Assembly (NCBI GenBank): GCA_015227615.1 | Contig: JAALGZ010000035.1 | Span: 248,001 to 312,000, forward strand | Direction of reading: 5' to 3' | Length of the DNA stretch: 64,000 bases | Source: Labyrinthula sp. Ha | Taxonomy: Eukaryota > Sar > Bigyra > Labyrinthulida > Labyrinthulaceae | Part shown: piece after piece, positions 7,886 to 52,475 of the stretch | How the letters are laid out: every line of letters begins with the position of its first letter | How positions within the stretch are numbered: position 1 is the first letter of the stretch | Made by a program: the position numbers and the translations under genes | Notes under the pieces: generated by a model | Databases searched by the model: none | What the model was told of the DNA's origin: nothing | What the model saw: only the letters and a program-made list of their open reading frames with translations

Positions 7886-9052
7886 ATGAATATCAATCTA
7901 GGTATGCATAGGAATACAACCTCAAGTATAACAGACTCCGTGGTAATATCTGAAATAGAATCGCTCACAAGCCCAACACGTCCTAAAACGCTACGAGGAG
8001 GAGCTGAAAATCCAGAAGCATCTGATTCTTCGACTGAAGAGAAGAAAACTAAGTTTTCGTGGAACTGGATTACAAGCATATTCTCAGGCGGGTATTTTTT
8101 TTTTCTTTTCTTCAACGTAGGTCAAACAATGAGACTTTATACAGACCGTGCAGTGAAGATGAGAAGTTTGTAATTTCCAGCAGCAAACTGTATTTCAAGC
8201 AACTTATTACTACTGGGATAATTGCAATAGTTGCTTGGTTTTTTGTTGTAAAACTGGAAGAGGATTCTAAAATTGGAGAACTGTTTAATTGTGATGCAAA
8301 TGACAACGATTCTATCATTGCTGCAGATGAGGTTGCGGGTGATTTCAAGGGTAGATTTACGCTTTTGGTTTTACTTCCTAGATGGTGGAGAAAGTTTTTG
8401 TTACTTCAAAAGTGTTATGATCATTGTGAGTTTCATCTTTCTTTTTCCATTTGCGTTGAGAACGCTGAGTTTGGTGTTAATCCTGTGGGTTTCAATTATT
8501 AATGAGGAGGTGCTAATTCCAGTGTCTGAAGGATTTTATGCTGGACAAGGACAAGTTTATTCTGCCTTGATGAGCAGCAATCCACTCCGAAGAGTTTTTT
8601 CTACTATTTCTGGGTTTAGGCAAATTGTTGTCTTTCTTGTAACCAGTACTGATGGCAACTGCAAAAAAGTTATAATGGTGTTTGAAATTGTGTGGAAGTT
8701 TTTCATATTCTTGCTTCCAGATATTCTGTTGACGTTCTCCTTATTTCCAATCTCATACTTTGTAATGCACTCGTCCAAATCTCCAGATGAAGTTGTTGTT
8801 AATCTTGTTGCTGTTCAAGTATTTGCTACTCTAGATGAGATCTTTGTAAAGATGCTTATGAGGCCAAGGGAGGATGTTGGTGAAACTATCCAGAATTATT
8901 GTGAAGTTAATCCAAAGATTGAAAGGGCAATGTACAGGCCATTGAATGCGTATTTACTTGTAGTTAATAGGCATGAAATGGGGATTCCAGTTCAAGGACA
9001 AAATAACGGTGTTATGGCTGACTTGCATAACTATTCTGCATTCAAGATCTAA
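7886..9052 (+). CDS. Multi-pass membrane protein, unrecognised family, two tiny introns
   Basis: The coding sequence is join(7886..8091, 8121..8350, 8382..9052), about 368 residues. Intron 1 (8092-8120, 29 nt, almost all T in its first half) and intron 2 (8351-8381, 31 nt, ending CCTAG) both have GT...AG ends, and removing them joins three overlapping open frames into one. The N-terminal 70 residues are Ser/Thr/charged and probably cytoplasmic. Hydrophobic helices follow: TTGIIAIVAWFFVV, a pair in VMIIVSFIFLFPFALRTLSL and the residues after it, and a pair in FEIVWKFFIFLLPDILL and the residues after it. The C-terminus is hydrophilic. The ATG at 7886 lies in an A-rich context with stops upstream. 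I do not recognise the family, so no transport role is assigned. It converges with the minus-strand gene that ends at 9378. Confidence 0.75.
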
Positions 9053-9377
9053 AGCAAGTTATTCAGGAATTATTCCCTATGGATATCCTACCAAGGAAGC
9101 GATAAAGTTTCAGATAAGTCAAGTGCTCTTATTTGTAAGTTCCTTACTGCTTCTACCAGCAGGTTAAACTTAAAATGTTTTATTTGCAACAGGCTAATCT
9201 CTTTTTCATTCTGGTAAATAACTGTTTCAAAATCATTTCGACAACCTATATATATTGAGTTGTTTTGTTGGTCTTGATGTATAAAAAGTTCAGTAATCCA
9301 CGTTGAAATAGGTGGATAGTTCCCATCGGCAAATCATTTTCCACTGTTGCTTTACTTAAAGTGGTCAATCTCTTCAT

Positions 9378-10060
9378 CTAAACATCTATCGCCTGAACGT
9401 CAAAAGGAAATAGCACGTACTTCTTTAAGCTCTGGAATTATATCGTATATAGCAGCTCCTCTTACATACGATGTAGCCACATTAAACCCTCTAACTAGGT
9501 TAGCTGTTAACCCACGACTATTTACAGTTGATTCAAACAGTTCAGGCAAGTATTTCCCGTGTCTCGTCTATTGGCAAAAAATTTTGAAAACTATACAAAT
9601 GGAAACAAGTATTGTGATTCAATATAACTATAATCGTGAGACTCAGACTAAAAAACGAAGTTAGCCCAACAGTTATCTCCTGATACCTGCTCACTAGAGC
9701 TTATGGCCTCTTACCTAGCATTTATAATTTTTGGTGTTCTTAACTCAGGCAGGTCCAACTCATTGGGAAGAAGTAAACACGGCCAAGGACGATATTCTAC
9801 ATGGAACCAACAGGAAACGGATATGTTCGAGCTGACGCCAAAACAATTTTCCATGTTTATGCGAATAGATGTGTATGCTTTCTGCAGCTTTACCTTTCCT
9901 TTTGGTTTTCTTGAAGTCTGAGTTACGCTATAATGATCTTATTCCACCAAGAGTTGACATTCATCTGGTAAACAACAACTAGTTTCCTCACATGGTTCGA
10001 CTTTCACAGCTTTTATTTTAAGAAAGCAAAACAACAAGAACTTTTTCCAGAACTTTTCAT
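9378..10060 (-). CDS. PWWP-like small protein, hidden gene with six tiny introns
   Basis: Read on the minus strand from an ATG at 10060, seven exons join in frame when six GT...AG introns are removed: 10041-10010 (32 nt), 9947-9918 (30), 9714-9687 (28), 9656-9628 (29), 9596-9568 (29) and 9420-9393 (28). All phases match. Every in-frame stop falls inside an intron, and the third donor is the strong AG|GTAAGA. The product is about 169 residues. The middle part (CWFHVEYRPWPCLLLPNEL, then about 35 residues later a hydrophobic run ending YLFPF) has the PWP core, spacing and closing PF of a PWWP domain, a chromatin reader fold that binds methylated histone tails and DNA. The N-terminus is Lys/Cys-rich and the C-terminus helical. 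It starts 98 bp downstream of the helicase stop on the same strand. The PWWP call is moderate; the gene structure is firmer. The 3' end could extend if the last acceptor is further downstream. Confidence 0.62.
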
Positions 10061-10158
10061 TTTTAACGCCTTAACCTAGCTTTTTTCAACATCAACGGCT
10101 AGCTGTGAAATTAGAAGTGAAAAAGTTCTATCTAACTAACTAATATCAAAGAGAAGAA

Positions 10159-13100
10159 CTAGCGGGAATTATAGTATTTAGGTTTTTTTGGTCTCTGAAA
10201 GTTCTGACTAGCAGAAATATCATCGCTTTCTGAGTCTTCGATAATTATATCCGCAACAAGATCTACGTATTGCTGGCACTCCCTTACAATTTTCTGACTA
10301 TGTCTATGCGGTTCCAAAAGAATTTGCAAACATACATCAAACCTTTCTTTCGCATCTCTAAGTAGTTCAAAGTCATCTCTATTTTCCAATTTATACTGCA
10401 CCCATTCTTTAATATCCAAGAACTCTCCAGAACCTAGACCGTACTCTCTTGCTTTTCGCACATATTGCTTACGATCCAATTTAAACAGTTCATACCCACT
10501 TTGTGCCAGGAAAACTTTACTACTTCCAACTCTTTGTTTAAAATCTGGATCAACAGCTTTTAGCTTTCTATTCAGTGCACTTAACTGTGCCTTATCACCT
10601 TCCTTAGCAACCAAAAACTCCACAAGCTGCTCCATCTCAGACTTTTCCGCTGGTACTTCTTTACTCGCTGTGTAATTTTCCTTCATCTGAACATCAGACG
10701 CGAAGAAAGCAACTGGAAATGGGGAAATTTGAGATGCATCGTAAATATTCACTCCCATGTCTGTTTTCATGCTGTCGAAGTAAAACAAGTACTTGTGCAC
10801 AAAGTCAATGTTCTTCAACTGCTGAGCAATCACACTGTTTTTATGCAGGGAAACCTTTCCATGCTTTCTCGCATAGAACAAACTCATTCGAGTTTTAGGA
10901 GTAATCTTCAGTAAATTCAAGTCTCCCATCAATCCAGACACAAGACAAGCTTTGACAACAGGCCAATCATGACTTCTCTCGTTCAACTTTCTATAGTTAT
11001 CACCAGTTGCATCAACTTCTAGGCTTGTAAGCAACTGTCGCTTCAAATCCTTTACTTTCAACAACTGCGCATTGGACAAAAAGTTTTCTCTTGCAAAATC
11101 ATACCTTCTTGGATGGTTCATCCATTTATCGTACGCGTTCAAGATGGTGAAATGATCAGTAGGATGACCTTCTGACATTGCTAATTTCCTTTCATCAGCA
11201 AGTCTTTGAAGACCTTTGTCCATAGGCGTATAAAAGATGTTCTTTTGTGACATAATCGACACCAAAGTAAGCACTGGATCTACACATTTAAACACAGTCG
11301 ACAAATAAAGTGTTTTTGCAACTTGAGGTGGTAATGGTAGCATGCTAATCTTCCTCCCAAACCATGTTAAATCCTGCTTTCCATTTTCATTTTTCATTGC
11401 GTTCAAATTCAAAAGTAGTTCAATTGCATTTTCTACACTTTTTTCCTCAGGTGGAGTTAAAGCTTTTGAAAGAAAATTCTTGCATCCATCTTCTGTCTCA
11501 TCAGCAAGTTGCAAAGCTCGAGTTTGTAAGCATAACTGTTCTAATGACGTGGTTAACATTTCAGGAGGACTAAATTCTTCCAAACCGAACTTAGCCAATT
11601 TTTCTGGAAGGAGACAAAAGTATTCTCCATGTTGCACACGACCAGCTCTACCTTTTCTTTGTTTCAATCTATCTTTTGAAGCTAAAGCACTTGTCAGAAC
11701 GCCAATGTTTGTTTCATGATCATGTGTCTTCTCACGAACCAGTCCAGAGTCGATTACAAACCTTACATCGTTCAGCGTAATTGAACTCTCCGCAATGTTT
11801 GTGGAGAGAACCAGTTTTCTTGTTCCATAAGGAGATGGAAGAAAAACTTTTCTTTGTTGTTCAGAAGATACCAAACTGTGTAAAATGTGAATATCCAAAG
11901 AAGACACTTCAGGAGATCTATCACCTTGAAGTAGTTCATGCAACTTTTTAATTTCTCCCCATCCAGGAAGAAAACAAAGGATTGCATTTGCAGAGTCTTC
12001 GCCTCTATCAGAGTTCACAATATTCTTAATCAGCTTCTGAATTACACCATAAGGCGGTTCTTTTTCCTTGAAACCGTCAATGATCACATTCTTCGATCTC
12101 TCTGACCCAGAATAAGTGAAACCAATGCTCCCATCCCCGTGTACCCAGTTTTGATTAGTTTCGGAAGGAGCTGTTTCTTTTCTTTTTCTTCCTCGAAAGT
12201 TTCTTGATCCTCTTGATTGGTTTCCTTGCTCGCTAAAGTCCTGAGTCGTAGCTCCAACAAGATCTATCACGTTTTCCAAGTAGTTTTCTTCAACAGGAAA
12301 CATTCTTCCTTCAATCCCAAGCTCTGCAACTCGATCAAACTCATTGAAGTATTCCTTAAAGTTTGTTGAATCCAGCGTCGCACTCATTACAACAACCTTT
12401 AAATCTGGTCTCTTCCTCACAAGCTCTTTTAATATAACCAATAGAAAATCACTGTCCAAACTTCTTTCATGGGCCTCATCTATAAAAACAGTAGTTACAC
12501 CCTCAAGATCTCCATCAAGTGCTAATTTTCGTAAAAGTACTCCTGCAGTGAGATATAAAATTCTTGTATCCTGAGAAACTTTCTTGTCCAGCCTTATCTG
12601 GTAACCTACAGTAGATCCAAGCTCACAGCCAACTTCTTCCGCAACTCTTGTTCCAACTCCAATGGTGGTAAGGCGCCTAGGTTGTGTAACTACGATGTTT
12701 TCGAACTTGGATTCTTCCATAGCTTTTTCTAGAAGATATTGCGGCAGTTGAGTCGTTTTTCCAGAACCTATCCGTTAAGAAATGAAAAATTTTGAAAAAC
12801 CTGTTTCTCCAGAAAGAATAATAATTTGGTTCTCTTCAAGCAGCGACAGGAATTGCTCACGATATTTATACGCAGGAAGAGTTGTTCGAAACTTAGTTAT
12901 ACTTGGCGAGGGATTGTGCGAGGAGTTTGTGGGCATGTGTGTTGATGATGTTGTAAAAACATCAGATTGGAAATTTATGTTCATGGAAGGATTGATTTTT
13001 ATGTGCTGAAGAGAAGAGATTGAAGATTGTAGTTTTGATTTATATGAAGGTGAGATTCTAAGCGCTTGTGCATCGAGAATAGGCGTGTTCTGAGTATTTC

Positions 13101-13227
13101 CTGCAAGATTTGGAATGGTTAAAACCTCTTTATTCAAAATTTTCTGTTTCAGGAGTGGAGGAAGACTTCTTGAGTTGGTTACATCTTTAATTATACTCTC
13201 TGCTGCTTCTTCTAAAAGAGTGGACAA
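10159..13227 (-). CDS. DEAH-box RNA helicase (DHX36/DHX57-like)
   Basis: The coding sequence is complement(join(10159..12767, 12801..13227)), about 1011 residues. A 33-nt GT...AG intron at 12768-12800, which contains an in-frame stop, interrupts the Walker A motif. Removing it restores GETGSGKTTQLPQ near residue 140. The other superfamily-2 motifs follow in order: TQPRR (Ia), LTAGVLLR, FIDEAHERS (II, near residue 239), VVMSATLDS (III), FLPGWGEI (IV), STNIAESSIT (V) and QRKGRAGR (VI). Helicase-associated and OB-fold-like regions come next. These DEAH proteins unwind RNA or G-quadruplexes using ATP. A basic insertion (RKRKE, near residue 340) could be a nuclear signal. The 150-residue N-terminus is low-complexity. 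The start is unsettled: the frame stays open above 13227 without an ATG up to a stop near 13308, so a further 5' exon joined by a tiny intron is likely. Confidence 0.93.
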
Positions 13228-13309
13228 AGATAGAGGCTTTACGTTTCTGCTTGAGACTTCTATTCCTGAATTTTTGCCAGTTAAATTTCTTGTTTGAGTA
13301 AGATCCTAT

Positions 13310-16300
13310 TTGTAAGAAGAAGCTGCAATGTACGTTTTTGTGGTCTTTGCATCTTATTCATGGTGTTCAACATAACTGTGGTGTTGATTACCGTTCTTTT
13401 CATTTGTAAAGTGACAAGCGGTGGTAACACGGTATTGAACAAAAGTGAACCATGGTTGAGTCTTTTCACTTTTTTTTTGAGTCATGGTGCTGCTTAGTTA
13501 TAGGTCTACTGCTTAGTCTATCAGCTGACATAAAGTTAGTATAGACTACGTGAATAATAAACCTTAATGAAGATGATAAATTTCTTTGGTTGAGTACTTC
13601 TCCCCAACTAGATACAACAGTTAATACTAAAGGCGGGACCTCTTTTCTTAATGAATATGGATCCATTAGCAATACCTGGTTTTCTACGTTTAAGATTTAG
13701 CTATCAACCATTTGGATAAGTTGAATGATATATAGATATTAAAGTGCTCATCTAAAGACGGAATCCAGCTTGTAGGGTTTTTAAGTTTTTTTCTGTTTTG
13801 TCCAAAGCATAGAGCGTCTTCAACGCGTGAACAGGGTCTGGGGTATATTTATACCACCAATTGTAAACTTCAAATGCGATTAGTAACTTTTGATGTCTCT
13901 TTGATTACTAGCTTAATCGTTTACTATTTATTTGGTGAACTTGTTGTCTTTCTTCAAATAGGAATTTATTATAGCTAATGCTTAGAGTTTAATTGCCAAT
14001 ACTACTAGTTAGAGGATAGCTTCCCAATAGAGGTTACAAAGCCTGTTAACTATATGACTACGGAGTTAATATATCTATCTTAGTACTTAAATAACTATAT
14101 AGGTGGTTTTATGCCAGTAATCACAGAAAGAATGTGAAACTAATGTCACACAGTCATTTTTTAGCTAAAACAGTTCGACTATGATCAGCACAGCATTATT
14201 AATCGTTAAGCTCTGTATCGGGAACAAGAAATGTAAGGGAGTAAAAATATATGAAAAACCGGCTTCTGATTTATTTATATAGTAAAATTAAACTTTAACA
14301 AGTACCCACAGGTTCTCTGAATGTTGTACTTACGCATATATGATGGGTAAAGTAACTAGCCATGTTATTCTATTGAGCAACTTCTGTGGAAGAGACGGCC
14401 AGTAGAAAAATGTTTCTGTGAAAAATATTTCTGAGAATTTACTGTAAGTATTGTAATTGGACTTATTTTTACCATTATCATATTTCCTTTTATTTTTCTG
14501 GTAAAACCACAGTTTTTTTTCATAAGGAGTCAATACTATTTTCTCTGTTAAACAGCTTATCGAACAAATTAATTATATTGAGAAAAGCAGTAGTGAGTGT
14601 TACTTTGAAAGGAGTTATTTAATGATGACCAAACTCTTATTGAAAATTAATATTTCTAGATATATGTGGAGCAAGACCTTTCTGAAAGCCAGACGTAATA
14701 GAAACAGATCCCAAATGCAGAGTATATGTGCCCTGTTAAGCATATCGACTGTGTTCCTTTTTTATGAATGGAAAACAATATTTTGAAAGAATAACAGCAT
14801 TTAACATCCGGATATAAACTATTGAAGAGCATGAAATGCTTAAAAAGATGAACTTATTGCAAAACAAAAAAATAAATCCGTCGATTTTGCCTATTTTTTT
14901 GGGGGCTAGAATATCGCCGAAAAGCTTCAGGTATTAACAGATGCTAAATTAAAGTCTTTAACAGGTTATAAATAACATGGAGCCGTAACTAGCTCACTTT
15001 CGACTTTGGAATTATTATATTAGCATGAGTAGATACACCATATCGCACTTGCTCAGACTCCCAATACGAGCTATTTAACATAGATCGGGCTTGGTATGAA
15101 CTCCATTCTTGTAGATAATAGAACTGAGGATTCTAACATAAATACACTTACCAAGGTAGGAGGGTTGAGAAAAAGTAATTCCTCAAAGAACTTTGACAGT
15201 TAAAATGGTAAACTTGAGAGATTTTATCACTCTTTGATCCATACAGCAAGGGCAATTTTATTTCAAGAGAGCTTTTTTATGGTTTCAGGTGATCAGCAAC
15301 CATATGTACAGTATTTAGCCTTAGTTGTAGTATTAACTAAAAGAAATGTCCGCGTACAAATCACTAAAATTGAGGAGGAATTTTCATGGAGATATAATCA
15401 TATTTGAAAAAAAATGTTAAAATTCAACTGAAGAAAAAACTGGAAATATATATCCATATCTTATTCCCGTATTGCAAAACACATTCGTTAACATAAGGAC
15501 TCATTATTATTGAAGGGAACTCAAAGTGGAATGTCAGGGATGAGTCTTTTGGCCATATTGAATTATCTTGTAGAACTGATCTTCTATTACGCAAGTCTCT
15601 TGGAAATAAATCAGTTTCAATAATAAGTTAATATATTATGGCTTAGCTTAGCATTTTTGAAATTTTGAACAACGGGGTCCGGACATAGGAAACGATATTG
15701 TAGGCTGGAAATAGCGGGGTCAGAACAATGCATTTGAGTGTAAAAGCAAATCGTTTCATCTTCACATGTTCGATGAGGTGGAACTTATTAATATATTGCA
15801 TGATCCCAAGAAAGAAAGATAACTTTCATTGCAAAAAATGGAAAATAGAATACATCATCACAATATTACGAGGAGATAATAGCAATGCTCATTAAGGATG
15901 TAGACTAGAAATCCTTGACATTGAACGAAGTAATCTATAATATTTTCCACCTCTTTTAGCTGTTATGAGACCCACGGAAAGCAGAGCAATTTCATCGATA
16001 AAACTGTTGAGCTGGGCGCACAATAAACAAATAATGTACAAATAAACTTATGTGTTGTGACTTGTGAGCAAGAATTTTTCTTATCTGGCAAGCTTAACTG
16101 AAACCGTGATTATCCGGTTGCATCTTTTATACATAAACAGCCAGATACTAGGGTTGCATAGAATTGCGAGGTCAAAGCAAATCACCTACATGGTACTACT
16201 GCCTTCATTGATGAAGAAAAGTGAACTCTATTTTCAGAAACTACTACGCAACCACTACACCAGTAAAGCAAATAATTTTTTCTTAAACTGCAACCAGTAT

Positions 16301-16648: not shown

Positions 16649-17229
16649 TCGGATTTGATTTATTGATGATTAATAAATTTGAAATTTCCCCATGTTTTTC
16701 TTGTTGATTGATTCTGAGAATCTCCAAACCATTTTGATTTATTATCAATAATTAATAACAAATTGGGGCAGGTGGTCTGAGGCCGAGCAGTAAAAAAACT
16801 ATAATTCATGCTGCCACCGTTTGGAATTCTGCTAGACAAGGGCATATGACTAGGGTTTATAAGGGTAGAAGAGCAACCTACCGTAAGAAATCTTTTCGGG
16901 AAATATGTACCGCTGCAGAGTCATAACGGAGATGTTACCGTTATTTCCCGGTGTAGTGTGTCATTAAAAAACCCTACAAATGACTCTGGTGCATTTTATT
17001 ACCGGGTTATTCATCGTCCGTATGATCTTTCTTTATGTATTTTCGTGCCGTCAATGGATATAATATATGTTGTTGGACCGCTGGGTTCAAAGTGATGAGG
17101 CCCAATGCATTGGTGATAATCAAAATAAAATCAGAATCATTTGATAAAAACCAAGATCTAAATTCTTTTGTTGATAATTAGAATCAAAATGATTAACAAA
17201 TAATTATTGATAATTCTTATCAAATCCGA
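16649..17229. mobile_element. MITE-like element with terminal inverted repeats, copy 1
   Basis: A 581-bp non-coding element is bounded by perfect 11-bp inverted ends, TCGGATTTGAT (16649-16659) and ATCAAATCCGA (17219-17229). The subterminal parts repeat GATAAT/ATTATC-type motifs in inverted orientation. Internal blocks (GATTGATTCTGA, CATGCTGCCACC, GGAATTCT, CATATGACTAGG, TTGTTGG, GGTTCAAAG) recur in the same order in the element at 35549-36128, which has almost the same length. This is the signature of a non-autonomous DNA transposon. No clear target duplication is visible. The superfamily is not assigned. Confidence 0.72.
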
Positions 17230-18576: not shown

Positions 18577-21114
18577 ATGTTTGGCAGTTTTTCTTCATTT
18601 GGAAAACCCAACGAGAAAGTAACCTCTTCAGCCTCCCAAACAAGTAACTTTACATTTGGTCAGTCAAATAAGTCGCAATCCGTCCAGAAACCAGCAAACA
18701 CATTTGAAAACAAAAAATTTAAACCAAAAGCAACAACTAAATATTCCTTACTTAATTCCAAAAAGTTCACTAATAAGTCCCTAGTGAAAAAAACAACACA
18801 AACAACTCCACAAAAAAATCTTCCGGTTTCATTAGAATCATCTTCTACTCCTCAAAATACTCAAAATCAGTATCAGTCCTCTACTTTCATTACTGGGTCT
18901 TGCACCACACTCTGCCCACCGTCAGAGCTCGAAACCCGAACGAATGAAAATGCACTTCATCCACTTGAAATCCACGAACTAATTCCACCTGTCAAAGCTT
19001 TTCAACGATCATCAGCTGGAGTTGTTCTCAATGTACCTGAAATCGTACGTACCTTACCCGTGCTCGTAGAAACAATTAAAGAACTGCTTCAGCTATTGAG
19101 ACAAACAGAGTCCATTTTAGAAAAGTTTCCTGATGAAAGTTTACCTTTTGTTTTTGGTTTTGTGTTTGATAGAACAAGAGCAGTAAGAAAGGATTTGTCT
19201 CTTCAGGGATACTTGGAGATTAATGGTAGAAACAGACCTTTAACAAAGGAGGAAAAGAATGATGTAATTTGGATAATAGAAGTTTGTGTTAAAATTCACT
19301 TGCTGGGTGATTACCTTCTCTGTGAATTTACAAAATCTCAAGGTCACGATTCTGTTCTAAATAGGCAAGAATTGAACAATTGTCTCAAAACATTATACTC
19401 ACTAAATCTCTTGTCGAAGGGGATGTTTGAGATATATATCTTACTTTCTGTACTAGGACAGGATACTCTTTCAGCTTCAAAGCTTTTAGCAGAGTATGCA
19501 AGATCCTTTGATTATTCTCACGGCGTTTTCTTATTAATTGTTCACTCCTCCAGACGAGGAAATTGGGCTTGTTTGAGACGTTCTGTTGAGTTCTGTAAGC
19601 GAAAGATTACTTCAGGAAAAGTTTCAGGGATGATGTACTGGTTTTTGTTGCTTGGTTATGATGCTTGGACTAGGTGTCTACTTCGTGGTGATGAGATCGT
19701 ACGGAAAGCTATGGGTCCCAAAGGCCCTAAGGCAGCAATTGAGGATTTAGAAACTGTTGCCGGTGGGTTGATTTCTGGAAGAGCGAGGGATGAAAGTATT
19801 GATCAAGTTTTTCTTTCAGAAGGATTTAACTTTGTGGTGGATTTGATAGAAAAAAAAAGTTTACAAAGAAAAGAAGAACCTAGAAAGAAATCGTCAAACC
19901 TACTCAGGAGTGTAAAAAAAGCTGTGGCAAAAAGAAAAGAAAGTGGTCTCAATAAAGAAAAGGCTCTCAAGGAAAAGCTGCTTCAAAAATCAAGGGTAAA
20001 AAAAGAGTCCAAACCAGTTGTTGAACCATCATTTTCTCCAAATGTCAAGCCAAATGTATCCCCATTACAAACTAGTTCAATAAGTGTCTTCAAACCAATT
20101 GCTACCGAAGCAAGGAAGATTGAGCAGGTGGCTGTACCATTGAACATTGCCTCTAAACCATTGATACAAGGGAAGGCGGCTGTGAAGGGGATTCAACCAC
20201 AACCTAAGCTCTTTAAACACAAGGATAATTTGACAGTTGTTTCTTCTCCTGCAGTCAAACCCACACCTATAGTGACCCAGAAGCTTGTGCCAAAGACATC
20301 TCCAATAATTTTGTTTAAGCCTAGGAAGCGGAAGTTTGTACCTGATGAGGACTCCTTTGAAATATATCAAAACCGATCGTTTTTATTGAAGAAGTCTCCA
20401 ACAAGAAAAAGTGTATCCCAAAGAAAAAGTGTTAAGGATGTTGATATTGGTTATTCTCGATCTTTGTCTACGTTGTTTTCTGAGAGCAAATTTAGCTGTG
20501 AAGAATATTCACAATACCAAAACTATCAGGTATTATTTTTTCAAAACATGCAACAAGCCAACAAAATACTGCATAAAAGAAAAACTCAAAGAGTAGTTGT
20601 GCTGGATAGTTTTTCTCATTTTCCGGACTTGAACGCCGAAGAGATCTATGTATTCGGAGACCTATTCGACTTATTTTTTTCTAACACAAACATGAACACT
20701 GTCCATTCGTTCATGCTGTTTCTCGATGAACATGATCCATCTTTAGGTGCGAAAGAGAAAATACGCAAACTCAGTGTTTGGTCTAAATTAAGATTACAGA
20801 AATCTTACGCTAAAAAGTTTGTAGAGTTTAGAAAAAGAAAGCCGGTTAACAAATACTCCATTGCGTTTGTGCTTGATGCGTTGCTCTCGGACTCTCATCC
20901 TCTTGTTTCAATACCAGAGGAAGAAAACATAACAGATCTTAATGCAACCAATGTATCTGATGAGGTAACTCTTGTGGATCTTCACAAAGAAAATGAAGAT
21001 GACTTGGAATTAAGACGACGGACGAACGAAATCAAACAACGAAACCTTGATAAGCAAATTATGGATTTGCAGAAACAAATCAAAGCGGAATTATCGAGAA
21101 CTAACCTCGTTTAG
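18577..21114 (+). CDS. SAC3: SAC3/GANP-family mRNA export factor
   Basis: The 845-residue frame is uninterrupted. The first 100 residues are Ser/Thr/Asn/Gln-rich with FG-type dipeptides (MFGSFSSFGKP, FTFGQ), as in nucleoporin-like N-termini of SAC3 proteins. The SAC3/GANP domain begins at TGSCTTLCPPSELETR (about residue 106) and runs to about 400; the conserved FVFDRTRAVRKDLSLQ lies near residue 197. A Lys/Arg-rich, Pro-rich region (about 430-660) and a C-terminal coiled coil (ELRRRTNEIKQRNLDKQ) follow. SAC3 is the scaffold of the TREX-2 complex, which couples transcription to mRNA export at nuclear pores. The ATG at 18577 is preceded by stops. The gene converges with the reductase gene, with 68 bp between stops. 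Confidence 0.88.
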   Translation: MFGSFSSFGKPNEKVTSSASQTSNFTFGQSNKSQSVQKPANTFENKKFKPKATTKYSLLNSKKFTNKSLVKKTTQTTPQKNLPVSLESSSTPQNTQNQYQSSTFITGSCTTLCPPSELETRTNENALHPLEIHELIPPVKAFQRSSAGVVLNVPEIVRTLPVLVETIKELLQLLRQTESILEKFPDESLPFVFGFVFDRTRAVRKDLSLQGYLEINGRNRPLTKEEKNDVIWIIEVCVKIHLLGDYLLCEFTKSQGHDSVLNRQELNNCLKTLYSLNLLSKGMFEIYILLSVLGQDTLSASKLLAEYARSFDYSHGVFLLIVHSSRRGNWACLRRSVEFCKRKITSGKVSGMMYWFLLLGYDAWTRCLLRGDEIVRKAMGPKGPKAAIEDLETVAGGLISGRARDESIDQVFLSEGFNFVVDLIEKKSLQRKEEPRKKSSNLLRSVKKAVAKRKESGLNKEKALKEKLLQKSRVKKESKPVVEPSFSPNVKPNVSPLQTSSISVFKPIATEARKIEQVAVPLNIASKPLIQGKAAVKGIQPQPKLFKHKDNLTVVSSPAVKPTPIVTQKLVPKTSPIILFKPRKRKFVPDEDSFEIYQNRSFLLKKSPTRKSVSQRKSVKDVDIGYSRSLSTLFSESKFSCEEYSQYQNYQVLFFQNMQQANKILHKRKTQRVVVLDSFSHFPDLNAEEIYVFGDLFDLFFSNTNMNTVHSFMLFLDEHDPSLGAKEKIRKLSVWSKLRLQKSYAKKFVEFRKRKPVNKYSIAFVLDALLSDSHPLVSIPEEENITDLNATNVSDEVTLVDLHKENEDDLELRRRTNEIKQRNLDKQIMDLQKQIKAELSRTNLV

Positions 21115-21182: not shown

Positions 21183-22187
21183 TTAAAGCGCCAGGTGTTT
21201 ATCTAGATCAACATTGAGCGGTCCTTGAGGAACAATATCTCCGGAATAATACCCTTTCACTACGTCATCTCTATTTACTGTATCCTTTATATTTCTATAG
21301 TTGTACATTTCTTTCAAAAAACGAAACATGTTGGGCAAATCCTTTATCATAGTTCTAGAAGTCTTGAATCTGCTGAAATAAACGAGGTCATAACGAAATA
21401 ACGTTGCAAATAATCTTATATCGCTGAGAGTCACATGATCACCCGTAAGAAATTTCCTTTCCCCCAAAAGAGCTTCAATTTTATCCATTGCTATCCAATG
21501 TGCTTTATACGCATCAACATATGCTTCCTGACTTTGTGCAAATCCACATCTATACACCCCGTCATTTATCCCTGGATAAACTATGGAATCAACCTCCTTC
21601 ATTTCCTCTCTCAACTCTTCTGGGTTAAAGTTAAGATCTGGATACTTTGCCCACTTGTTGAACACTGAATTGAACATAACGATAATCTCACTGCTTTCAT
21701 TACAAACAATCTTATTTGTTTTCTCATCGAAAAGTATAGGTACACTAAATACTGGTCTTTTTCCCATCTCCTTGAACCGCTGTTTATATCCAGGTGAACT
21801 GAGTTCGTATATTTCACTTGTCGATTTGAACCCATGCGGCTCATGCTTCAAACTTCCTTTAGGCTCATTTTCATAGAAAAGCCACCCTTTATATTCGTTT
21901 GACTCTGACTCATTGAAATTATTCTCATCGAAACTCTTAATTTGAGGCATTTTTGCTTGTGCTATAGTCAAAGCCACACAATCTCCTAATCCTTTTAATT
22001 TATAGAGCATCAGTGTTCTGTGTGCCCAGGGACATAGGTAGTTCACATAAAGTCTGTATCTATTCTTCTCTGCTGGAAACTCTGCTTCGGGATCTAGGGA
22101 TATTTTGTTGTGGAATTGCGTTGGGTTTCTCTTCCAAGCCCCTTCTGCGTCACTCTTATTTCCGAACTTTTGTTGATCTGTTGACAT
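21183..22187 (-). CDS. ECM4: Glutathionyl-hydroquinone reductase (ECM4/Xi-class GST)
   Basis: The 334-residue product matches the family length. The N-terminal thioredoxin-like domain carries the catalytic NYLCPWAHRTLM motif (Cys52). The family's long insertion (GWLFYENEPKGSL, then SPGYKQRF) leads to RPVFSVPILFDEKT and the glutathione-contacting NESSEII. The helical C-terminal domain includes VYPGINDGVYRCGFA, FLTGDHVTLSDIRLFATLFR and YFSRFKTSRTMI, all typical of YqjG/ECM4 proteins. The enzyme removes glutathione from S-glutathionyl-hydroquinones, with the cysteine attacking the mixed disulfide. No targeting signal is evident, so it is probably cytosolic. Confidence 0.92.
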   Translation of the reverse strand: MSTDQQKFGNKSDAEGAWKRNPTQFHNKISLDPEAEFPAEKNRYRLYVNYLCPWAHRTLMLYKLKGLGDCVALTIAQAKMPQIKSFDENNFNESESNEYKGWLFYENEPKGSLKHEPHGFKSTSEIYELSSPGYKQRFKEMGKRPVFSVPILFDEKTNKIVCNESSEIIVMFNSVFNKWAKYPDLNFNPEELREEMKEVDSIVYPGINDGVYRCGFAQSQEAYVDAYKAHWIAMDKIEALLGERKFLTGDHVTLSDIRLFATLFRYDLVYFSRFKTSRTMIKDLPNMFRFLKEMYNYRNIKDTVNRDDVVKGYYSGDIVPQGPLNVDLDKHLAL

Positions 22188-36396: not shown

Positions 36397-36873
36397 CTAA
36401 CCTTTAACATGCACGTGATACATGAAATTTAACTTTAATAAGTTTACTTTGGTTCTTAGTTTGACCAAAAGTTCCAGGATTCTGTCGATCCGCCCCTGTA
36501 CTTCTGGGAATCGGTCAGCGAGTTCTTCAGACAGAAAAGTCACTACATTTTCAGGCTTGGTAGGCTGTTTTGAGAAAAACCATTTTCTCTTGGCTGGGTT
36601 AACTCTCATCCTTTCCTTTAGTTTTTGGTACCCGGCTTCGTGTACCTCTTGCAATATCAAAATGTCGACTGTTTGAGAAAAAAGAAGTAAATAGTGTAGT
36701 TTAGTAGAAGTAAGACCACCAACACTAATGCTCGCTAGTGTTAGTTTACGGTGCTGTTGACTCGTGACGCATGCACCTCCTTGTGCAGGTTTAGAAAGCA
36801 TTCTGTGATCAAAACTCAACAGTTTCTTTTGTTCTTGTGTCATTTCGAGTTTCCTAAAATTGTATATTTCCAT
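36397..36873 (-). mobile_element. LINE fragment: N-terminal AP-endonuclease domain
   Basis: An open minus-strand frame of 158 codons carries the start of a LINE endonuclease: TLASISVGGLTSTKLHYLLL, then VDILILQEVHEAGYQKLKER (matching the family pattern of an N-terminal beta strand and an LQE catalytic Glu motif), then RKWFFSKQPTKPENVVTFLSEEL. It aligns with the same part of the element upstream (about 41100-40800) and with the fragment at 58032-58430. The rest of the element is missing, so this is a broken copy. It lies just 3' of the longer LINE. Confidence 0.7.
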
Positions 36874-37899: not shown

Positions 37900-40800
37900 A
37901 GGTTCCAGAATAGTTGTTTCACGTGCTGCGTCTAGTTGAGCATCCACTGTTTCCTATTCACTGAAGGGTTGGATCCGTTGTTCTGCGAGTTCAAAGACAT
38001 TTATATATCCATCATGCAGGTTGAAGTTCATGTTATCCAAGTTATCTATTTTCTCTTTTGTATTTTTAGAAAGTTCGTTGAGTATCTTCTTGATGGTGAC
38101 CGTGATGTTCCAGTTGTGGCAGTTTTATAATAGAGGTGAGAGTGCTAGTGACAAGAAGATCCTCCTTCAGATTTTTTGTTCAAGATGGTCGACTACAGGA
38201 GGTAGTTGAATTGGTTCAGGTCACTTTTTGCCCTTGTTATCTTGTCCAAGACTGCTTTTTCAACCAAACCCAAAGTGTTAAGTACTGCTCCAAGATATTT
38301 CATCTTGGTTGTTCCTTGTATTGTTTGGCCATTGACTTCTATACTTGGGACTTTCTTCCTGAGTAAACTGGTCAATATATCTTCTTCGCGTGAAACTGCT
38401 AGGGTTTTTGTTCTTGGACGGTTCTTTGTCCCATCACAGTATCTAGAAGCCCGGTGAATATTCAAGCATCTTGCAGTTTGAAGAAAACGGTCAAACATTT
38501 CATAACAAACTTTCACAGAACTCTATTGATCAAAGCGTCATATATATTTTCTTGTATTTTAGGTACTTTCACCATGTACATGATATGTGTTTTATTGAAA
38601 TTTATTCCCAGACCAGTGATGTATTTAAGTTCATTAAGTTGTTGAGCAAGATCTATTACTTGAAAGTCATATTTAATAAACCTAACTACATCTCTGCAAA
38701 AGCCATAAGTTGTAGTTGCTCAGTCCCTAGGCTTAATTTTTCATATGTATTATCTTTTAGGCGATGTATAATACTGTCCAGTGCCAGAATAAAGAGAATT
38801 TGTTGTAAGCTGTCACTTTGCCTGACTCTATTTAGAATCCTTGTTATTTTTCATTCTTTCTCTCCTTCAACTACTTTAACTTTTGCCATAGAGGTACATG
38901 ATCTTTTTTATTAATGAATTAGGTACTCCATGTTGTATGAGCGAAAGACGGATAGAGCTGTGTGAAACTGAGTGAAAAAGCTTTCTTGAAGTCAATAAAA
39001 AGCATCTTGTGTCCCCGTTTCTCCGCTATACTTTATGTAATTATTCTTTTCAGTATTTCGATATTGTTGGTTGTCACATGATGTTTACAAAAATCTGCTT
39101 GATATGAAGGTATTTTTTCAGCTACGTTCTCTAGTCGATTATTGATGATTTTGTTGACATTTTGAAGAAGCTTTGCAGCAGCATTATTGGTCTGTAAGAC
39201 AAGGCATTTCGTTTCTCACCCTTACCTTCATCTAGGAATAATACTATTCCTAGATAATATCCTGCTTCTTCATTTTCTTAAGGTTTCCTATTATAAAAAA
39301 TCTTTGGATGACTTTTATTAGATGTTTTTGAAGTCTTATAGAATAATTGAGAACTTCATTTATGACTTCATCATTTCCGCTGGCTTTGTTGTTCTTGATT
39401 GATTTTAGGATGTTGATGATTTCTTCTTTACTTGGAACATTGCATGAAACTGTGCAGCCGGTTTGAGAATTTAAGTTGAGTTGTCTGTGGTAATGTTGTA
39501 TTTCTTCTGCAGTCATATTCTCTCTTCGTTGAGTTGGATATTTTTGGGGCTCTCGGGTATGTTCCCGCAATGTTTTCAGTCTCTTTTGCACTGGTATGGT
39601 ATTACTTTCTCCGTCTTTAGTTATTCTCCCGAAGTTACTTTTCTTCCTCTGAAACATTTTCATTATTCTAAAGGCTTGACGAGAGTTTTTGATGATGTTT
39701 TTTTTGTCAGTTGCTGGACACATCTTGTCCAAATACGCGTTTCTGTCAGCAATGTAGTCGTTTCTGACATCTCTGGACCTCTTTCTTCTTTCTTCCTGTG
39801 AAGCTGTGTTAAACATTTGTATTCTTTAACTTGTTGAGTTTAAGAGTTGCTAATGAATTCTATCGGTGAAAGCCCTTGCGTTTCTTGGACGGAAACAGTT
39901 CTTCTGTTATTTCGCTTGATGCTTTTGTGAGTTAGATGTAATCCACCTCTTCGGTTTCAAGTTCAGTATTCTTCAATTTACATTGCAGAGCTTCGTCAAA
40001 CTGTTTTCTGCACGTCTCTAGATAGGTTAATACATCTTTTTCTGTGTTGTATTTAGGTTTGATGTTGTGGCGTGTGAGGTTGACGGAGATTTGTATTCCC
40101 ATGTGATCTTTTGGTTCATGCAGCCAGGAGGCTTTGCTAATCTTTCTGGTTACTTTGAAGGGTTTGATTGCTGCGGGTTCGTTGGTGTCAAAGAGAGCTA
40201 TTTATAATGATTTTTTCTGCTTGTTCAATGGCTTGAAGGTTGTATGTCTTCTGGATCCTTTCTTTTCTGTCTTGTACCTGTGATTTACTCTGTCCATCGT
40301 GTGTACCGTTAGGACCTGGGGAACACAGTAGTAGCCACTGTACCATTAGGATCTGTGGAATGATAGGAGCAGTAAACCGCTGTAGCGTACCGCTAAGTTG
40401 GTCAAGTAGGGCAATAGTAAAGGTATAAATAGAGTAATATGGTTGGTAGATAGGATTAGTCATCACTGTATAGGATAAGGCCATAGTAAAGAATCCAACC
40501 AACCACGAATTAAGAAAAGGGAATAAAGATATCACGAAAGGCCGATCAATACTAAGTTTAATGACTTAGAATTGGTGCACGTATTCTGGAGCAGAAACCT
40601 TTCCAACGTCTTTTTATTCCTGTTGCTTCTTAAGGTCATCCCGTACTTGTTGCTGGCGTTTTTTTCATGCTCTCTTGACCTGAGCGTTCCCATTGCCTCC
40701 AATAACTATGAACCACCTCTTCTTCACTGTTTTCATTACCTTTTCTTGTAGCTTTTCCAGAAATTTCTTGTGCTGCTGGGCCGGTAATTCACTATGAGAT

Positions 40801-41150
40801 ACGTGCACATTCCATAAAAAGTCTTTTGTTTTTACTTGACCTGTTCTTAATAGCTAGAATCTTGTCGCTCACTCTGTAGGTGTCACTTACATCATGGAGG
40901 AGTTCCTGCCACACATAGGTCGTTGCGCTACTGGAATTGAAGTTGGCTTGTGAGACAAACCACCTTCCTTTTCCGTTCTGACTGGCATTTTGGTTTTGCT
41001 TTGTCAATTCTTTCAACACTTTGTGTCCAACTTCTTGAAGTAAGATCAGTAGGGACGGAAGTTCGTAAACAAGGTTTACTATTGTAGAGAGAGTTTGTAT
41101 TGAACTAGATCGCCGATGTTGAGCAAGATTACTTGGACGCCCACTTTTTG
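37900..41150 (-). mobile_element. Degraded LINE with AP-endonuclease and reverse transcriptase (RTE-like)
   Basis: Read on the minus strand, the parts occur in the correct order but in shifting frames with many stops. The endonuclease start is near 41080 (SLLILLQEVGHKVLKELTKQ), the core at 41019-40792, a WFIVIGGNGNAQ-like GDFNA strand at about 40740, and a DHMGIQISVNL segment at about 40100 resembling the closing SDH motif. The RT follows: PSKEEIINILKSIKNNKASG (about 39450), a YRPI motif (about 39200), LFIDFKKAF (about 39000), RVRQSDSLQQILFILALDSI (about 38830), QLMAFAEM in place of FADD (about 38720) and LGINFNKTHIM (about 38600), with a thumb-like stretch near 38300. It is dead. Endonuclease plus RT without an evident RNase H suggests an RTE-like clade. 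Bases 37000-37900 may hold its 3' tail. Confidence 0.82.
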
Positions 41151-41460
41151 TTGGCTCGTGAAGTCTGGGAGCCCCTGGAGGCGCTGAGTTGACGTAAGCT
41201 TAAACTCAGAAACAACTTGTATCATTTTTTATTTACCCAAAATTTTCTTTCTCTTTATTTAACTATGCCCAAAGTAAAACAAGAGTCTGTCCTCTTTGTA
41301 AAGTCTTCACTAGACCGTTAAGAAATATTTAAAGTCCTATTGAACCTGTTCAATCAACAAAAATAAAGTTCTATCTTATCACAGCGATAACAACGCAAAA
41401 ATAGGTTATAAATGAAGATATTGAATATCTTTTTTCTTAGAGCAGTACAGAAGAAGGAGA

Positions 41461-42800
41461 ATGAGTCTAAGGAAACAAGTTAGAGAGGAGCTTATAAAAG
41501 AGGAAGGGAGAAAATTTACAATCTACAATACAGCAGCAGTTTCGCCTATGTTTGGGGTTGGACATAGAATCAGGGAAGATAATCCAGAATATGGGTTCCC
41601 TGATAAGACTCCAGTCTCAGAAGAGCGGGGAATCAGGCTTTCGAACAGGATTTGGATAGAGCAACAAACGAAGCAAGAGAGTTGTACGCAGAGTGTTTTG
41701 ATAATTTACCACAAGCTGCTCAAGTGGTTTTGATTCGTATGGCGTTTAGTATGGGAGGGAAGCGCTTGGGAAAGTTTGTGAAGATGAAAACTGCAATTAT
41801 AGAAAAGGATTGGAAAAGAGCTGCGGAAGAAGGAAGAGATAGTATTTGGCATAGGTACTTTCCACAAAGGAATGAAAATTTTATGAAAGTTTTTGATGAA
41901 CTAGCTAAAAAGGAAACATCTGATAGTGCTGTGAAGACTTCTTTTGTTATTAAGAATGAGCCAGGAAAGAATAGGGTTTCTAAGCTGTCTATGTCATCTA
42001 TTAACAATAAGAGTTGCTCAACTGAAAAAGAAACTGAGGAGCTCCAAGAAGATTGGATTCAAGCACGGAAGAATGCTAGAGAAGTATACGAGAGCACCTT
42101 TGTCCTGTTACCTAACAAAGCACAAGAAGCTTTAACAGATATGGCGTATGTCTTGGGGAAGCAAGGATTAGCATCGTTTGTATTATTCAAAGAGGCCGTA
42201 GAAAATAAAAACTGGGAAAAAGCGGGGATTGAAGGAAGAGATAGTGCATGGAATGCTAGAGACCCTGAGACTGCGGGTAGAATATTTAGAGCATTTGATG
42301 AGTTACATGAGGAAACAATGAAAAGGCAGCAGAAAGAGTCAAAGGAAATGTCGAAGACAGGTTGCATGTTGGGAGGAAGTTGTATAGGTTGTGTTAAGGT
42401 GCTGTTTTGGAAGAAAATAAGCGTTCAGTAGGAATCTGATATAATACAAAAGTCTTATTTACCAGGAAGAAGGGCAGTTGCAAGAGAATCGGCAAGAACA
42501 ATTTATGAAGAAATATTCGATGAGCTTCCTTTTAAGGCACAAGAGGCATTGACTGAGATGGTAATGGCGGTTGGAAAGCTTGGGTTGGAATCATTCGTTC
42601 GAATGAAAGTTGCTATTCAGAGAAGAGACTGGAGAGAGGCAGCATTTCAAAGTAGAGACAGTAGATTCCATGCAAGAGGCAGGGAAACTTGCGAAAGAAT
42701 TATGAAGAATTTTGAAGAACTTGCTTTAGATGAAGATAATGAAATACATACGACGGCAGGTCCAATTGTTGTGCTATCCAATATACCTCTTGCTGAATAA
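41461..42800 (+). CDS. Phage-type lysozyme (GH24) with three tandem C-lobes
   Basis: The start is ATG at 41461. The N-terminal lobe resembles T4-type lysozyme (ELIKEEGRKFTIYNTAAVSP, then MFGVGHRIREDNPEYG and TPVSEER), so the fold is GH24, which cleaves peptidoglycan. The catalytic Glu (Glu15) is present, but the T4 Asp20 and Thr26 positions read Thr24 and Met30. The helical C-lobe occurs three times: FEQDLDRATNEARELYAECF, then QARKNAREVYESTFVLLPNK, then ARESARTIYEEIFDELPFKA, each followed by a VLGKQGLASFV-like helix and a RDWREAAFQSRDSRF-like tail. The frame slips by one base beside GGGG at 41627-41630. One more G gives VSEERGNQAFEQDLDRA, so a homopolymer miscall is likely. A 33-nt intron (42399-42431, phase 0), which contains the only other stop, links repeats two and three. 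The gene has no secretion signal. Its family origin in phages suggests horizontal acquisition. Confidence 0.75.
42399..42431 (+). other. Predicted 33-nt intron in the lysozyme gene
   Basis: The intron runs from AAG|GTGCTG to TTCAGTAG|GAA in phase 0. It contains the in-frame TAG that would end the protein after two C-lobes. The length equals that of the helicase intron and of the intron at 51224-51256. The alternative is a genuine stop. Confidence 0.5.
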
Positions 42801-44565: not shown

Positions 44566-45756
44566 ATGAAAAACAATTTTTGGATGAGACTGCTAATGTT
44601 GGCTTTCTTAGTTGGCCTGGTCTCTTTCCTATCCTTCTGGAATCATGAAAAGTATGAACAAAATTTTCAACCTGAGGAAATAAATACAAAAGTTATGAAC
44701 ATGGAAAGCTTCAGAGAGTACAGATTGGGTAGTTTTCATCAACAAGTCGCAGAACCTCAGTTGTACCATATTATTCTCAGCTACAAAACTTTATACTCCT
44801 GGTATTTTTGTGTTATAGAAAGTCTAGCAATTCAGTTGTCAAATAGTTCAACAACTTCAGATATCAACGTTTGGATTGTCACTTTAGAAAGCCTCCAAGA
44901 AAAGAAAACTGAATTAGAAGCTTTGGAGAACATAGTTAAACGATCAAAAAACCTTATTATCAGATTTAGAGAAATTGATGAGAATATAATATTTGAAGGA
45001 ACACCTTTGGATGATTTTTTTAGGCGCCCAAAAAATGCATCTGCTTTAGCTGCACGTCAGAAAGTATGGGGCAAACTGGAGATGCAAAATCGAGCGAATG
45101 GTTTAAGAATCGCTCTAGTTTATAAGTTAGGTGGGATGTACCTAGATGCGGATTTTATTGTGATGAACGATGTCTCCGAGCTCCATGATGGATTGGCTAA
45201 GCAGGAGGCAGATGGCATAGCTGCGTATAACAACGCGTTCTTCAAGTTCGAGAAAAACAGTGAGTTTTTGAAACTTGCTTTAGCTGAGTTCGTTCGTGGA
45301 TATAAAGATGTATGGGGTATACAGGGGCCACAGCTGATGACTCGAGTAATTAGAAAGCATTGCAGAGGAGACAGTAATCCTCCGACGCTTGAACCCTTCG
45401 ATCTTCAGTGCACTGGACGGGGTGGTAGGGGTTTAATAAAACCAACGTTTAGCCTTGCTAGCTGGGGTAAAAGAAATGGATATTTTTATCGAGGTGGTGA
45501 TGCGTATAAACCTTGGCCTCCACCTAAATCAATGCCTCAGGAAGAACAAGAACGAGTGTATGAGATTTTCCTGAACCCAAAAAAATATTGTTATGCCATG
45601 CACTTGTCTCATACTTCAACGAAAAAGAGGGAAATGGAACTTTGTAACAGTGGCTTTGGCAAATATAAAAAGGTTCTTCGAGGACACCTTCGGTTTCAGT
45701 TTTGTCCTGCGATTATGGGGATTATGGAGGCTACTAAAAACTGCAACTTTAATTAA
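44566..45756 (+). CDS. DXD-motif glycosyltransferase (GT32/alpha-1,4-galactosyltransferase type), type II membrane protein
   Basis: The 396-residue product starts with a short basic tail and one hydrophobic helix (LLMLAFLVGLVSFLSF, residues 9-24), the plan of a Golgi type II protein. The luminal part has the sugar-binding domain: a Rossmann-like start (YHIILSYKTLYSWYFCVIES), a QNRANGLRIALVYKLGGMYL helix-strand unit and the metal-binding DAD (residues 194-196 in YLDADFIVMND). The C-terminal half (GIQGPQLMTRVIRKHC, then CYAMHLSH) resembles the Gb3-synthase region of A4GALT-like enzymes. It should transfer a sugar from a nucleotide sugar to a glycan or lipid with a divalent metal; the substrate is not predictable. 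No intron is needed. The ATG at 44566 is the first in frame. Confidence 0.85.
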   Translation: MKNNFWMRLLMLAFLVGLVSFLSFWNHEKYEQNFQPEEINTKVMNMESFREYRLGSFHQQVAEPQLYHIILSYKTLYSWYFCVIESLAIQLSNSSTTSDINVWIVTLESLQEKKTELEALENIVKRSKNLIIRFREIDENIIFEGTPLDDFFRRPKNASALAARQKVWGKLEMQNRANGLRIALVYKLGGMYLDADFIVMNDVSELHDGLAKQEADGIAAYNNAFFKFEKNSEFLKLALAEFVRGYKDVWGIQGPQLMTRVIRKHCRGDSNPPTLEPFDLQCTGRGGRGLIKPTFSLASWGKRNGYFYRGGDAYKPWPPPKSMPQEEQERVYEIFLNPKKYCYAMHLSHTSTKKREMELCNSGFGKYKKVLRGHLRFQFCPAIMGIMEATKNCNFN

Positions 45757-50418: not shown

Positions 50419-50640
50419 TTAGCTTTGTTTTTTTTCTTGAAATATAAATCCTTCAACCTCATCTTTTTTTTTCCAATAATCCTGAACCTTTACTTTTTCC
50501 TTGAACAAATCCTCCATTTTCAACCCTCTGAACAGCACTAAATCTTGTAAAATCTTGTTAAATCTTGTATATTCTTGCCAAATCTTGTAAATTAATGTGT
50601 TTTCGGGGTAGTAGCTTTGTCCTGTCTTAGATTTTATCAT
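50419..50640 (-). CDS. Possible small protein, 73 residues
   Basis: This ATG-initiated frame encodes a charged, helix-prone peptide (MEDLFKEKVKVQDYWKKKDE). Its first third overlaps the 10-bp tandem repeat at 50541-50590, so the N-terminus may be repeat translation and not a gene. No relative was recognised. Confidence 0.2.
   Translation of the reverse strand: MIKSKTGQSYYPENTLIYKIWQEYTRFNKILQDLVLFRGLKMEDLFKEKVKVQDYWKKKDEVEGFIFQEKKQS
50541..50590. repeat. Five tandem 10-bp units AATCTTGTAA
   Basis: The units are AATCTTGTAA, AATCTTGTTA, AATCTTGTAT, ATTCTTGCCA and AATCTTGTAA, exactly in 10-bp register. The period equals one helical turn, so the T-rich tracts would lie on one face of the DNA. 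Confidence 0.85.
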
Positions 50641-51146
50641 GCAACTGTGATGTTTTGTAATTTTTCATCTTGCTTTTGTTGGTTTGATTTTTTCAAAAAA
50701 AAATTTTGAGCAATTAAAAATTCGGCCAATGAGATTTAGGAGTATTTGACTCCGGAGTCAAAAAATCATATTCCTACCAATTATTCCACAACAGTGCCCT
50801 TCCCTTCTGGTGATTCAAGATTGCAAAGATATGAAAATCAGTTAAAAAAAATAATTAAATACTTCGAAAGAATTCAAACCTAGTCTATCTATTCTGTGTA
50901 AGCACGACTTTTTCGTGTTTCTGCTGAGCATATAGACTTATGGAATCTGCAAATCTTCTTCACTCTTACATTCGACTATGGTAATTTACCATTTAATTGC
51001 CCGAGATTTTGGGAAATGTCCAAATCTAGATTAGAGTCAAACCCGAAATAATAATCCCAAGAAAGAGAACCAAAAAAGTAACTTGGTAACCATAAAGACA
51101 CTTGGGAATCGGAATCTTGGCAAAATAAATAAACCTTAAAAAATAA

Positions 51147-52475
51147 ATGCAGATTTTAATATTTGGAGCAGGGGCTATTGGAACAACTTTGGGATATTTA
51201 CTAACCAAGAAAAACAAGAACAAGTATATACTTTCCGCAAGTTGTTTATTTTTTAGTGTAACTTTTCTTGTAAGAGAAACAAAGGTATCAAACTTAAAAG
51301 GATCAACAATTCCTTTATACTGGTATGATAAGAAGAAAGCTATTCCTTTTTCTGGTTTTGATGTTATGTCAACAGATTCCCTTGAAAGTAACGTACAAGA
51401 CCAAGATTTTCAAAAATTTGAGTTGATTGTAATGACTTTGCATACAGATATACTTCTCTCCGAAACTGGAAAGCAGCTCATTCAAAAACTTAGTTCCAAG
51501 TTAAGCCCAACTTGTAAGTTTCTTTCACTTTCTCCTGGGTTTCGTCTTCCAGAAGAAACATTTGGCCCAGCTGGCGTTAACAAGAACAGACTTTCTTTTG
51601 GTTTACCGCTATTTTTGTGTCATGAAGTTCCAATGACAGGTCAACCAGAAGATCCAAAGTATAATGACAGACATGGAGCAAAATATGCGTTTCATTTCCT
51701 TGTATCAGGTTGGTTTCCCCTCTTGGTATCTAAGAATCCAGATAAAGTTATTTCCACGGCGATCAAAGGTGCTGGAGGAAGGATAATGAACTTTGGAAAC
51801 TCTGTATTAGAAGCATCAACTGTAATCTTCTTGATCCTAAACTTGATGCTCAATCTACAAAATTACCCTGCGTCTTTGGATAAAAAGGATGAAAGATTCA
51901 CAGTTGCGATCAAAGCATTCAAGCAAACGATGAACAATTATGGACTGATAGGAACTGGTATGAAAATAACTATGGGAAAAAATATGTTTAAGCTGACAGA
52001 TTGGGTAAATAGAAAAATGACGCTACCTTTAACTATGGAGTTTATTAAGTACCATCATGGACATAAAGTTCTTGAACAGAATGTGGGAGTAGTCAGAGGT
52101 TATATTGAGTATGGAAAAGCAAACAATAAAAAAGTTGATGCGATTGAAGAGTTTTGTGGGTATTTTGAAACCAAGGAAGCTCCACCTCAAGCACAATCTC
52201 CTGTCCCTGTTGCCCAAGCGACTACAGTTCCTCCTCCATCTGGAAGTGTTGATCCGTCACCTGAAATGGCAGCTCCTATTGCCATAGCTAGTCCAGTAAC
52301 TCTGGCCACTGATGTGATCAGTTCTGAGCAATCTAAACCAAGTTCCCCTCCTCAAGAATCTGCAGGAAGTGATTTGACAGCAACAGGTGGAGAAGAAGCA
52401 AAGGTTAAGAAGAAAAAAAAGAACAAGAAAAAGAAGAAGAGTAAACGAAAGAAGGAGCGAAGAGAGAAAGAGTAG
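51147..52475 (+). CDS. Ketopantoate-reductase-like (ApbA/PanE) protein with polybasic C-terminal tail
   Basis: The N-terminus has the Rossmann NAD(P)-binding start MQILIFGAGAIGTTLGYLL. Residues 27-36 (ILSASCLFFS) do not fit the family. They fall in a 33-nt segment (51224-51256) with GT...TTTTAG ends, and removing it joins KKNKN to NVTFLVRET, the expected second strand. This is therefore an in-frame intron, and the protein has about 431 residues rather than 442. A FELIVMTLHTD strand, LSPGFRLPEE and an all-helical C-terminal domain (to about residue 330) follow the family plan. A Pro/Ala/Ser linker and a Lys/Arg tail (KKKKKNKKKKKSKRKKERR) are unusual additions, possibly for nucleic-acid, ribosome or membrane binding. 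Related fungal and protist proteins are of uncertain substrate, so pantothenate synthesis is not asserted. Confidence 0.78.
   Translation: MQILIFGAGAIGTTLGYLLTKKNKNKYILSASCLFFSVTFLVRETKVSNLKGSTIPLYWYDKKKAIPFSGFDVMSTDSLESNVQDQDFQKFELIVMTLHTDILLSETGKQLIQKLSSKLSPTCKFLSLSPGFRLPEETFGPAGVNKNRLSFGLPLFLCHEVPMTGQPEDPKYNDRHGAKYAFHFLVSGWFPLLVSKNPDKVISTAIKGAGGRIMNFGNSVLEASTVIFLILNLMLNLQNYPASLDKKDERFTVAIKAFKQTMNNYGLIGTGMKITMGKNMFKLTDWVNRKMTLPLTMEFIKYHHGHKVLEQNVGVVRGYIEYGKANNKKVDAIEEFCGYFETKEAPPQAQSPVPVAQATTVPPPSGSVDPSPEMAAPIAIASPVTLATDVISSEQSKPSSPPQESAGSDLTATGGEEAKVKKKKKNKKKKKSKRKKERREKE

Follow-up and report, generated by a model that had tools for sequence, protein, structure and literature searches.

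Probable GT-AG introns of about 28-33 nt in a 64-kb region of an intron-poor eukaryotic genome

In the 64-kb stretch of DNA analyzed here (hereafter designated as the window), a conserved motif and several open frames are interrupted by segments of about 28-33 nt, raising the question of whether such small segments are spliceosomal introns. The window is eukaryotic nuclear DNA with a G+C content of ~35%, and the original prediction placed at least sixteen introns in it. Our tally amounts to seven well-supported introns, about six possible ones, and one rejected, while the rest of the predicted introns depend on the gene model or are wrong (Table 1). We regard the supported segments as ordinary GT-AG spliceosomal introns of ~28-33 nt from a eukaryote that has few introns and long spaces between its genes (probability of about 0.85), and for these segments the earlier interpretation is retained as the best one. 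Their removal restores the conserved P-loop of a helicase and the Rossmann-fold N-terminus of a PanE-like protein, and joins open frames elsewhere. Two of the seven were fixed by homology and five were supported by frames and signals. Their lengths (28, 28, 29, 29, 31, 33, and 33 nt) fall in a narrow range, which has to be read with the small size of the set in mind, as well as the fact that five members were chosen partly on signals.

The clearest case was found in the gene of a DEAH-box helicase, in which the P-loop GETGSGKTT is split after GETG by 33 nt containing an in-frame TAA. When all excisions of 10-250 nt were tested, 33 nt was the only length that restored Walker A (IIILSGETG/SGKTTQLPQ), and this excision yields exactly IIILSGETGSGKTTQLPQ. 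Six registers are equivalent for this excision, and one of them has GT..AG ends; among the GT..AG segments of 14-90 nt, 12768-12800 was the sole solution for the P-loop. DHX29 and PRP43 from PDB aligned to the spliced protein with no gap where the exons meet, and the spliced protein scored 44.2 bits against PF00270 versus 29.6 bits for exon 2 alone. The motifs DEAH, SAT, and QRKGRAGR are otherwise kept over ~1000 codons. Thus, the Walker A intron claimed previously was supported by the unique solution, the internal stop, and the gapless PDB alignments.

The second intron fixed by homology resides in the gene of a PanE/ApbA-like reductase. The protein after splicing scored 30.5 bits against both PF02558 and TIGR00745, versus 20.1 and 17.6 bits before splicing (gains of 10.4 and 12.9 bits, respectively), and 11 extra residues disappeared from the TIGR00745 alignment. 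The junction register is unique and GT..AG. Neither the spliced nor the unspliced protein had a match in PDB (0 matches). We regard this intron as the less certain of the two, because its length is a multiple of three and it contains no stop; stop-free introns of such lengths have been pointed out as a possible annotation artefact (PMC5014332). The segment, being in frame and leaving the unspliced ORF intact, could alternatively be an insertion in the protein, but its presence costs 10-13 bits in the profile scores and its donor/acceptor score is the strongest in the curated set. An insertion is consequently improbable in our view.

Table 1. Genes, supported and possible introns, and the rejected segment in the window
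Feature	Positions	Strand	Basis or remark
ShK-domain protein	39-1265		
Membrane-protein gene, two introns, 362 aa	7904-9052	+	gene model; no Pfam family
29-nt intron, membrane-protein gene	8092-8120	+	frame join and signals; 62% T
31-nt intron, membrane-protein gene	8351-8381	+	coding score best among 11 GT..AG joins
Gene B, protein without named family	9378-10060	-	gene models
Possible 28-nt intron, gene B 3' end	9393-9420	-	gene model, YTNAC, YAG; no homolog
Possible 29-nt intron, gene B	9568-9596	-	gene model
Possible 29-nt intron, gene B	9628-9656	-	gene model; missing from some runs
DEAH-box helicase gene	10159-13305	-	PF00270, PF00271, PF21010; PDB matches to DHX29/PRP43
33-nt intron GTTTTTCAAAATTTTTCATTTCTTAACGGATAG in Walker A, helicase gene	12768-12800	-	fixed by homology
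Possible 31-nt intron, helicase 5' part	13212-13242	-	gene model only
Possible 28-nt intron, helicase 5' end	13306-13333	-	gene model only
SAC3/GANP protein	18577-21114		
GST-like protein	21183-22187	-	
Gene A, protein without named family	31640-32522	-	gene models
29-nt intron, gene A	31752-31780	-	sole GT..AG frame join at junction
28-nt intron, gene A	31874-31901	-	sole GT..AG frame join at junction
28-nt intron, gene A	32421-32448	-	picked in every gene model for the locus; YTNAC
Phage-lysozyme-like repeat protein	41461-42800		
Segment called an intron earlier, rejected	42399-42431	+	30% T, several internal AG (CAG/AAG) sites, 16 alternative GT-AG joins
Alpha-1,4-glycosyltransferase-like protein	44566-45756		
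PanE/ApbA-like reductase gene	51147-52475	+	PF02558, TIGR00745
33-nt intron GTATATACTTTCCGCAAGTTGTTTATTTTTTAG, PanE/ApbA-like gene, without in-frame stop	51224-51256	+	fixed by homology
Unnamed ORF	60519-61475		
COX5B	61715-62119	-	
LRR protein	62241-64000		runs past window end

The five remaining introns were placed by frames and signals. In the membrane-protein gene, 8092-8120 is the sole GT..AG join of 20-40 nt between the two frames on either side of it (the runner-up, of 17 nt, had a lower coding score), and 8351-8381 contains a YTNAC whose A precedes the 3' end by 9 nt. Removing both segments merges three frames into the single protein listed in Table 1. For gene A, the original prediction proposed five introns, of which three (28, 28, and 29 nt) were clean, while the gene models gave no join in the middle (~32060-32260) without odd introns. 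For gene B, six had been proposed; three near the 3' end (28, 29, and 29 nt) are plausible, while the gene models found no clean chain of 28-32 nt introns in the 5' half. Gene B is a minus-strand gene, a point left out of the original prediction. Neither gene A nor gene B could be resolved into one convincing chain of short introns. When models were forced end to end with introns of 20-40 nt, GT-AG ranked 2/64 for each of the two genes, and most decoy dinucleotide pairs gave no path at all. These ranks support short introns in genes A and B generally, without fixing their positions.

How much weight frames and signals can bear was gauged against decoys and against the window itself. The 63 decoy dinucleotide pairs also offered a segment of 20-40 nt that restores the frame, with a frequency of 11-87% that varied among the loci. 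Where homology is lacking, decoys restore the frame nearly as often as GT-AG does; frame joining by itself is weak evidence for introns. All seven supported introns have GT...AG ends, and three of them have a unique register. Because five of the seven were picked with signals in view, the following p-values are optimistic: against all GT..AG segments of 26-34 nt in the window, the donor was GTA in 6/7 (p = 0.002) and the acceptor YAG in 7/7 (p = 0.002), the mean T content was 0.49 versus 0.31 (0 of 20,000 resamplings reached 0.49), and YTNAC occurred in 4/7 versus 15% expected (p = 0.013). The GTA donors described earlier thus predominate in these seven as well. Where a branch-like YTNAC occurs in the 3' part, its A is 8-16 nt before the 3' end, with ~12-25 nt left to the donor. 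Over the whole window, a codon-model gene finder run without signal models ranked GT-AG 19/64 against the decoys, namely no excess, because introns occur in few genes and the codon model is a weak one. Strong look-alikes of stop-free introns inside long intact ORFs numbered 6 in sense and 2 in antisense, too few to draw a conclusion.

The same material could be explained by a mixture, in which just a few segments are introns, the remaining shifts of frame stem from assembly indels or lesions of pseudogenes, and the narrow range of 28-33 nt is partly a selection effect. That decoy dinucleotides often join frames too fits this explanation, as do the unclean joins in the central part of gene A and the 5' half of gene B. 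The lysozyme-like gene is also in its favor: the frame is broken by one base within a run of G near 41625-41640 with no space for an intron, so indels or gene decay do exist in the window, and a second interruption of the frame is a TAG in a linker. The 33-nt intron predicted within this gene (42399-42431) was abandoned for the low T content, the internal acceptor-like sites, and the alternative joins given in Table 1, albeit it shares with the four other exactly placed segments (8092-8120, 8351-8381, 12768-12800, and 51224-51256) the GT...AG ends and the length claimed for it. On the other hand, the Walker A segment contains a stop, a point indel is impossible there, and both introns fixed by homology are 33 nt long and have features in common with the other five. 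As an account of the entire set, we consider the mixture rather doubtful.

Far less probable is that the segments are DNA elements eliminated from the genome like the internal eliminated sequences (IESs) of ciliates, with the window being germline sequence. IESs can be as short as ~26-30 nt, the window has long non-coding spaces, and a short direct repeat flanks the Walker A segment, making its six registers equivalent, all of which would suit such elements. Nevertheless, neither TA nor any other flanking repeat is common to the seven junctions, the three junctions with a single register are all GT..AG, and the T-rich 3' part with a branch-like site is what introns would have. We thus retain spliceosomal introns as the preferred reading of the supported segments.

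The gene content of the window gives the setting of these introns. Most of the named genes are one open frame and intronless, and introns were found in 4-5 of ~13 genes. Neither the tRNA scan nor the Rfam scan of the 64-kb window gave a match (0 matches), and spliceosomal snRNAs were accordingly not detected by Rfam in the window. All of the 12 gene models examined for their stops end with TAA or TAG (12/12; e.g., at 1265, 9052, 10159, 21114, 45756, 52475, and 61475) and none with TGA (0/12), an absence with p ~0.009 as calculated from trinucleotide frequencies. No sense TGA was seen in the long genes of the window. Reading TGA as sense opened no new convincing long frame within known genes, and a 744-codon frame suggested by this reading turned out to contain the LRR gene, itself intact, at the end of the window.

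Several observations on individual genes and repeats were made alongside. Two 168-bp tandem repeats (647-1004) lie within the coding sequence for the ShK-domain protein. The lysozyme-like protein consists of about three tandem phage-type (GH24) domains in a eukaryote, with PF00959 scoring just under the cut-off. In an alignment of the COX5B homolog, all zinc-binding cysteines of the animal protein are replaced. ORF fragments resembling decayed non-LTR (LINE-type) retroelements occur at 36397-41199 and 58032-58454, both on the minus strand; endonuclease-like and reverse-transcriptase-like motifs were recognized in them by eye, and the fragments compared with Pfam gave no convincing match. An AT-rich dispersed repeat family of 90 bp (17136-17225, 27097-27186, and 36032-36121) has copies that are 64-77% alike and spaced by ~9-10 kb. 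Searches of viral contigs with the GST, helicase, and retroelement-like proteins found no relatives.

Judged from the protein sequences, the seven segments are probably spliced out in the cell. We infer that they are U2-type introns that shrunk until the donor, the branch-like site, and the acceptor nearly touched each other. The splice sites would be paired across the intron (intron definition), and a U2-type spliceosome would excise such introns as a small lariat; a missed splice would usually lead to a stop or a frame shift. With odds slightly below even, we propose that the source of the window is an aerobic eukaryote whose genome is loose, bears retroelements, uses TAA/TAG stops, and has practically all introns at 28-33 nt; it would be yet another lineage that arrived independently at ultra-short introns without genome compaction. 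What may be novel is the lineage, as the size class of the introns is already known. Should a peak at 28-33 nt be confirmed across the genome, one more lineage would join the few with ultra-short introns, and in this one genome compaction is excluded as the cause. Such a lineage would help to tell explanations like intron deletion bias or lost splicing factors apart from shrinkage of the genome in general. Default minimum intron lengths in gene prediction would miss most introns of such a genome.

Introns of comparable or smaller size are known from diverse eukaryotes. Those of Dicyema are 26.2 +/- 1.9 nt on average (PMC2222250); they are very short and uniform, as are the introns found here, albeit slightly shorter, and the hosts are parasites of animals, while nothing marks the window as dicyemid. 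Trichomonas vaginalis has type B introns of 23-26 nt in a genome of ~160 Mb with ~65% repeats (PMC12316389). The type B introns resemble those of the window in being T-rich and in belonging to an intron-poor, repeat-rich genome, and their branch site near the 3' end has a branch-like counterpart in some of the window introns, but Trichomonas has an additional class of introns longer than 50 nt. Trichomonas is not known to possess cytochrome oxidase, and COX5B encoded in the window argues against anaerobes such as this organism. In Mikrocytos mackini, introns measure 16-17 nt and transposons dominate the genome (PMC10245619), and long intergenic distances have been reported for another mikrocytid, Paramikrocytos (PMC11069148). 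Mikrocytids are similar to the window in combining tiny introns with a transposon-rich genome, but their introns are almost invariant at 16-17 nt in contrast to 28-33 nt here.

The introns of Paramecium and Nyctotherus are 20-35 nt, around 25 nt (PMC5014332). This range overlaps that of the window introns. In Paramecium, introns are very numerous and TAA/TAG encode glutamine, in contrast to the window, in which TAA/TAG end all of the gene models. Stentor coeruleus uses the standard genetic code and has introns of 15-16 nt (PMC9505925), being similar to the window in the code and in the possession of tiny introns but different in intron length. The original prediction set the window apart from ciliate and nucleomorph genomes that are compact or recoded; this contrast is contradicted by the reports on Mikrocytos, Trichomonas, Dicyema, and Stentor, because some genomes with ultra-short introns are large or transposon-rich and Stentor retains the standard code. 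Likewise, the notion of a spliceosome working at its limit does not hold, since introns this small or smaller have been published, down to 15-16 nt in Stentor, and with introns of 28-33 nt the spliceosome is therefore not at its limit.
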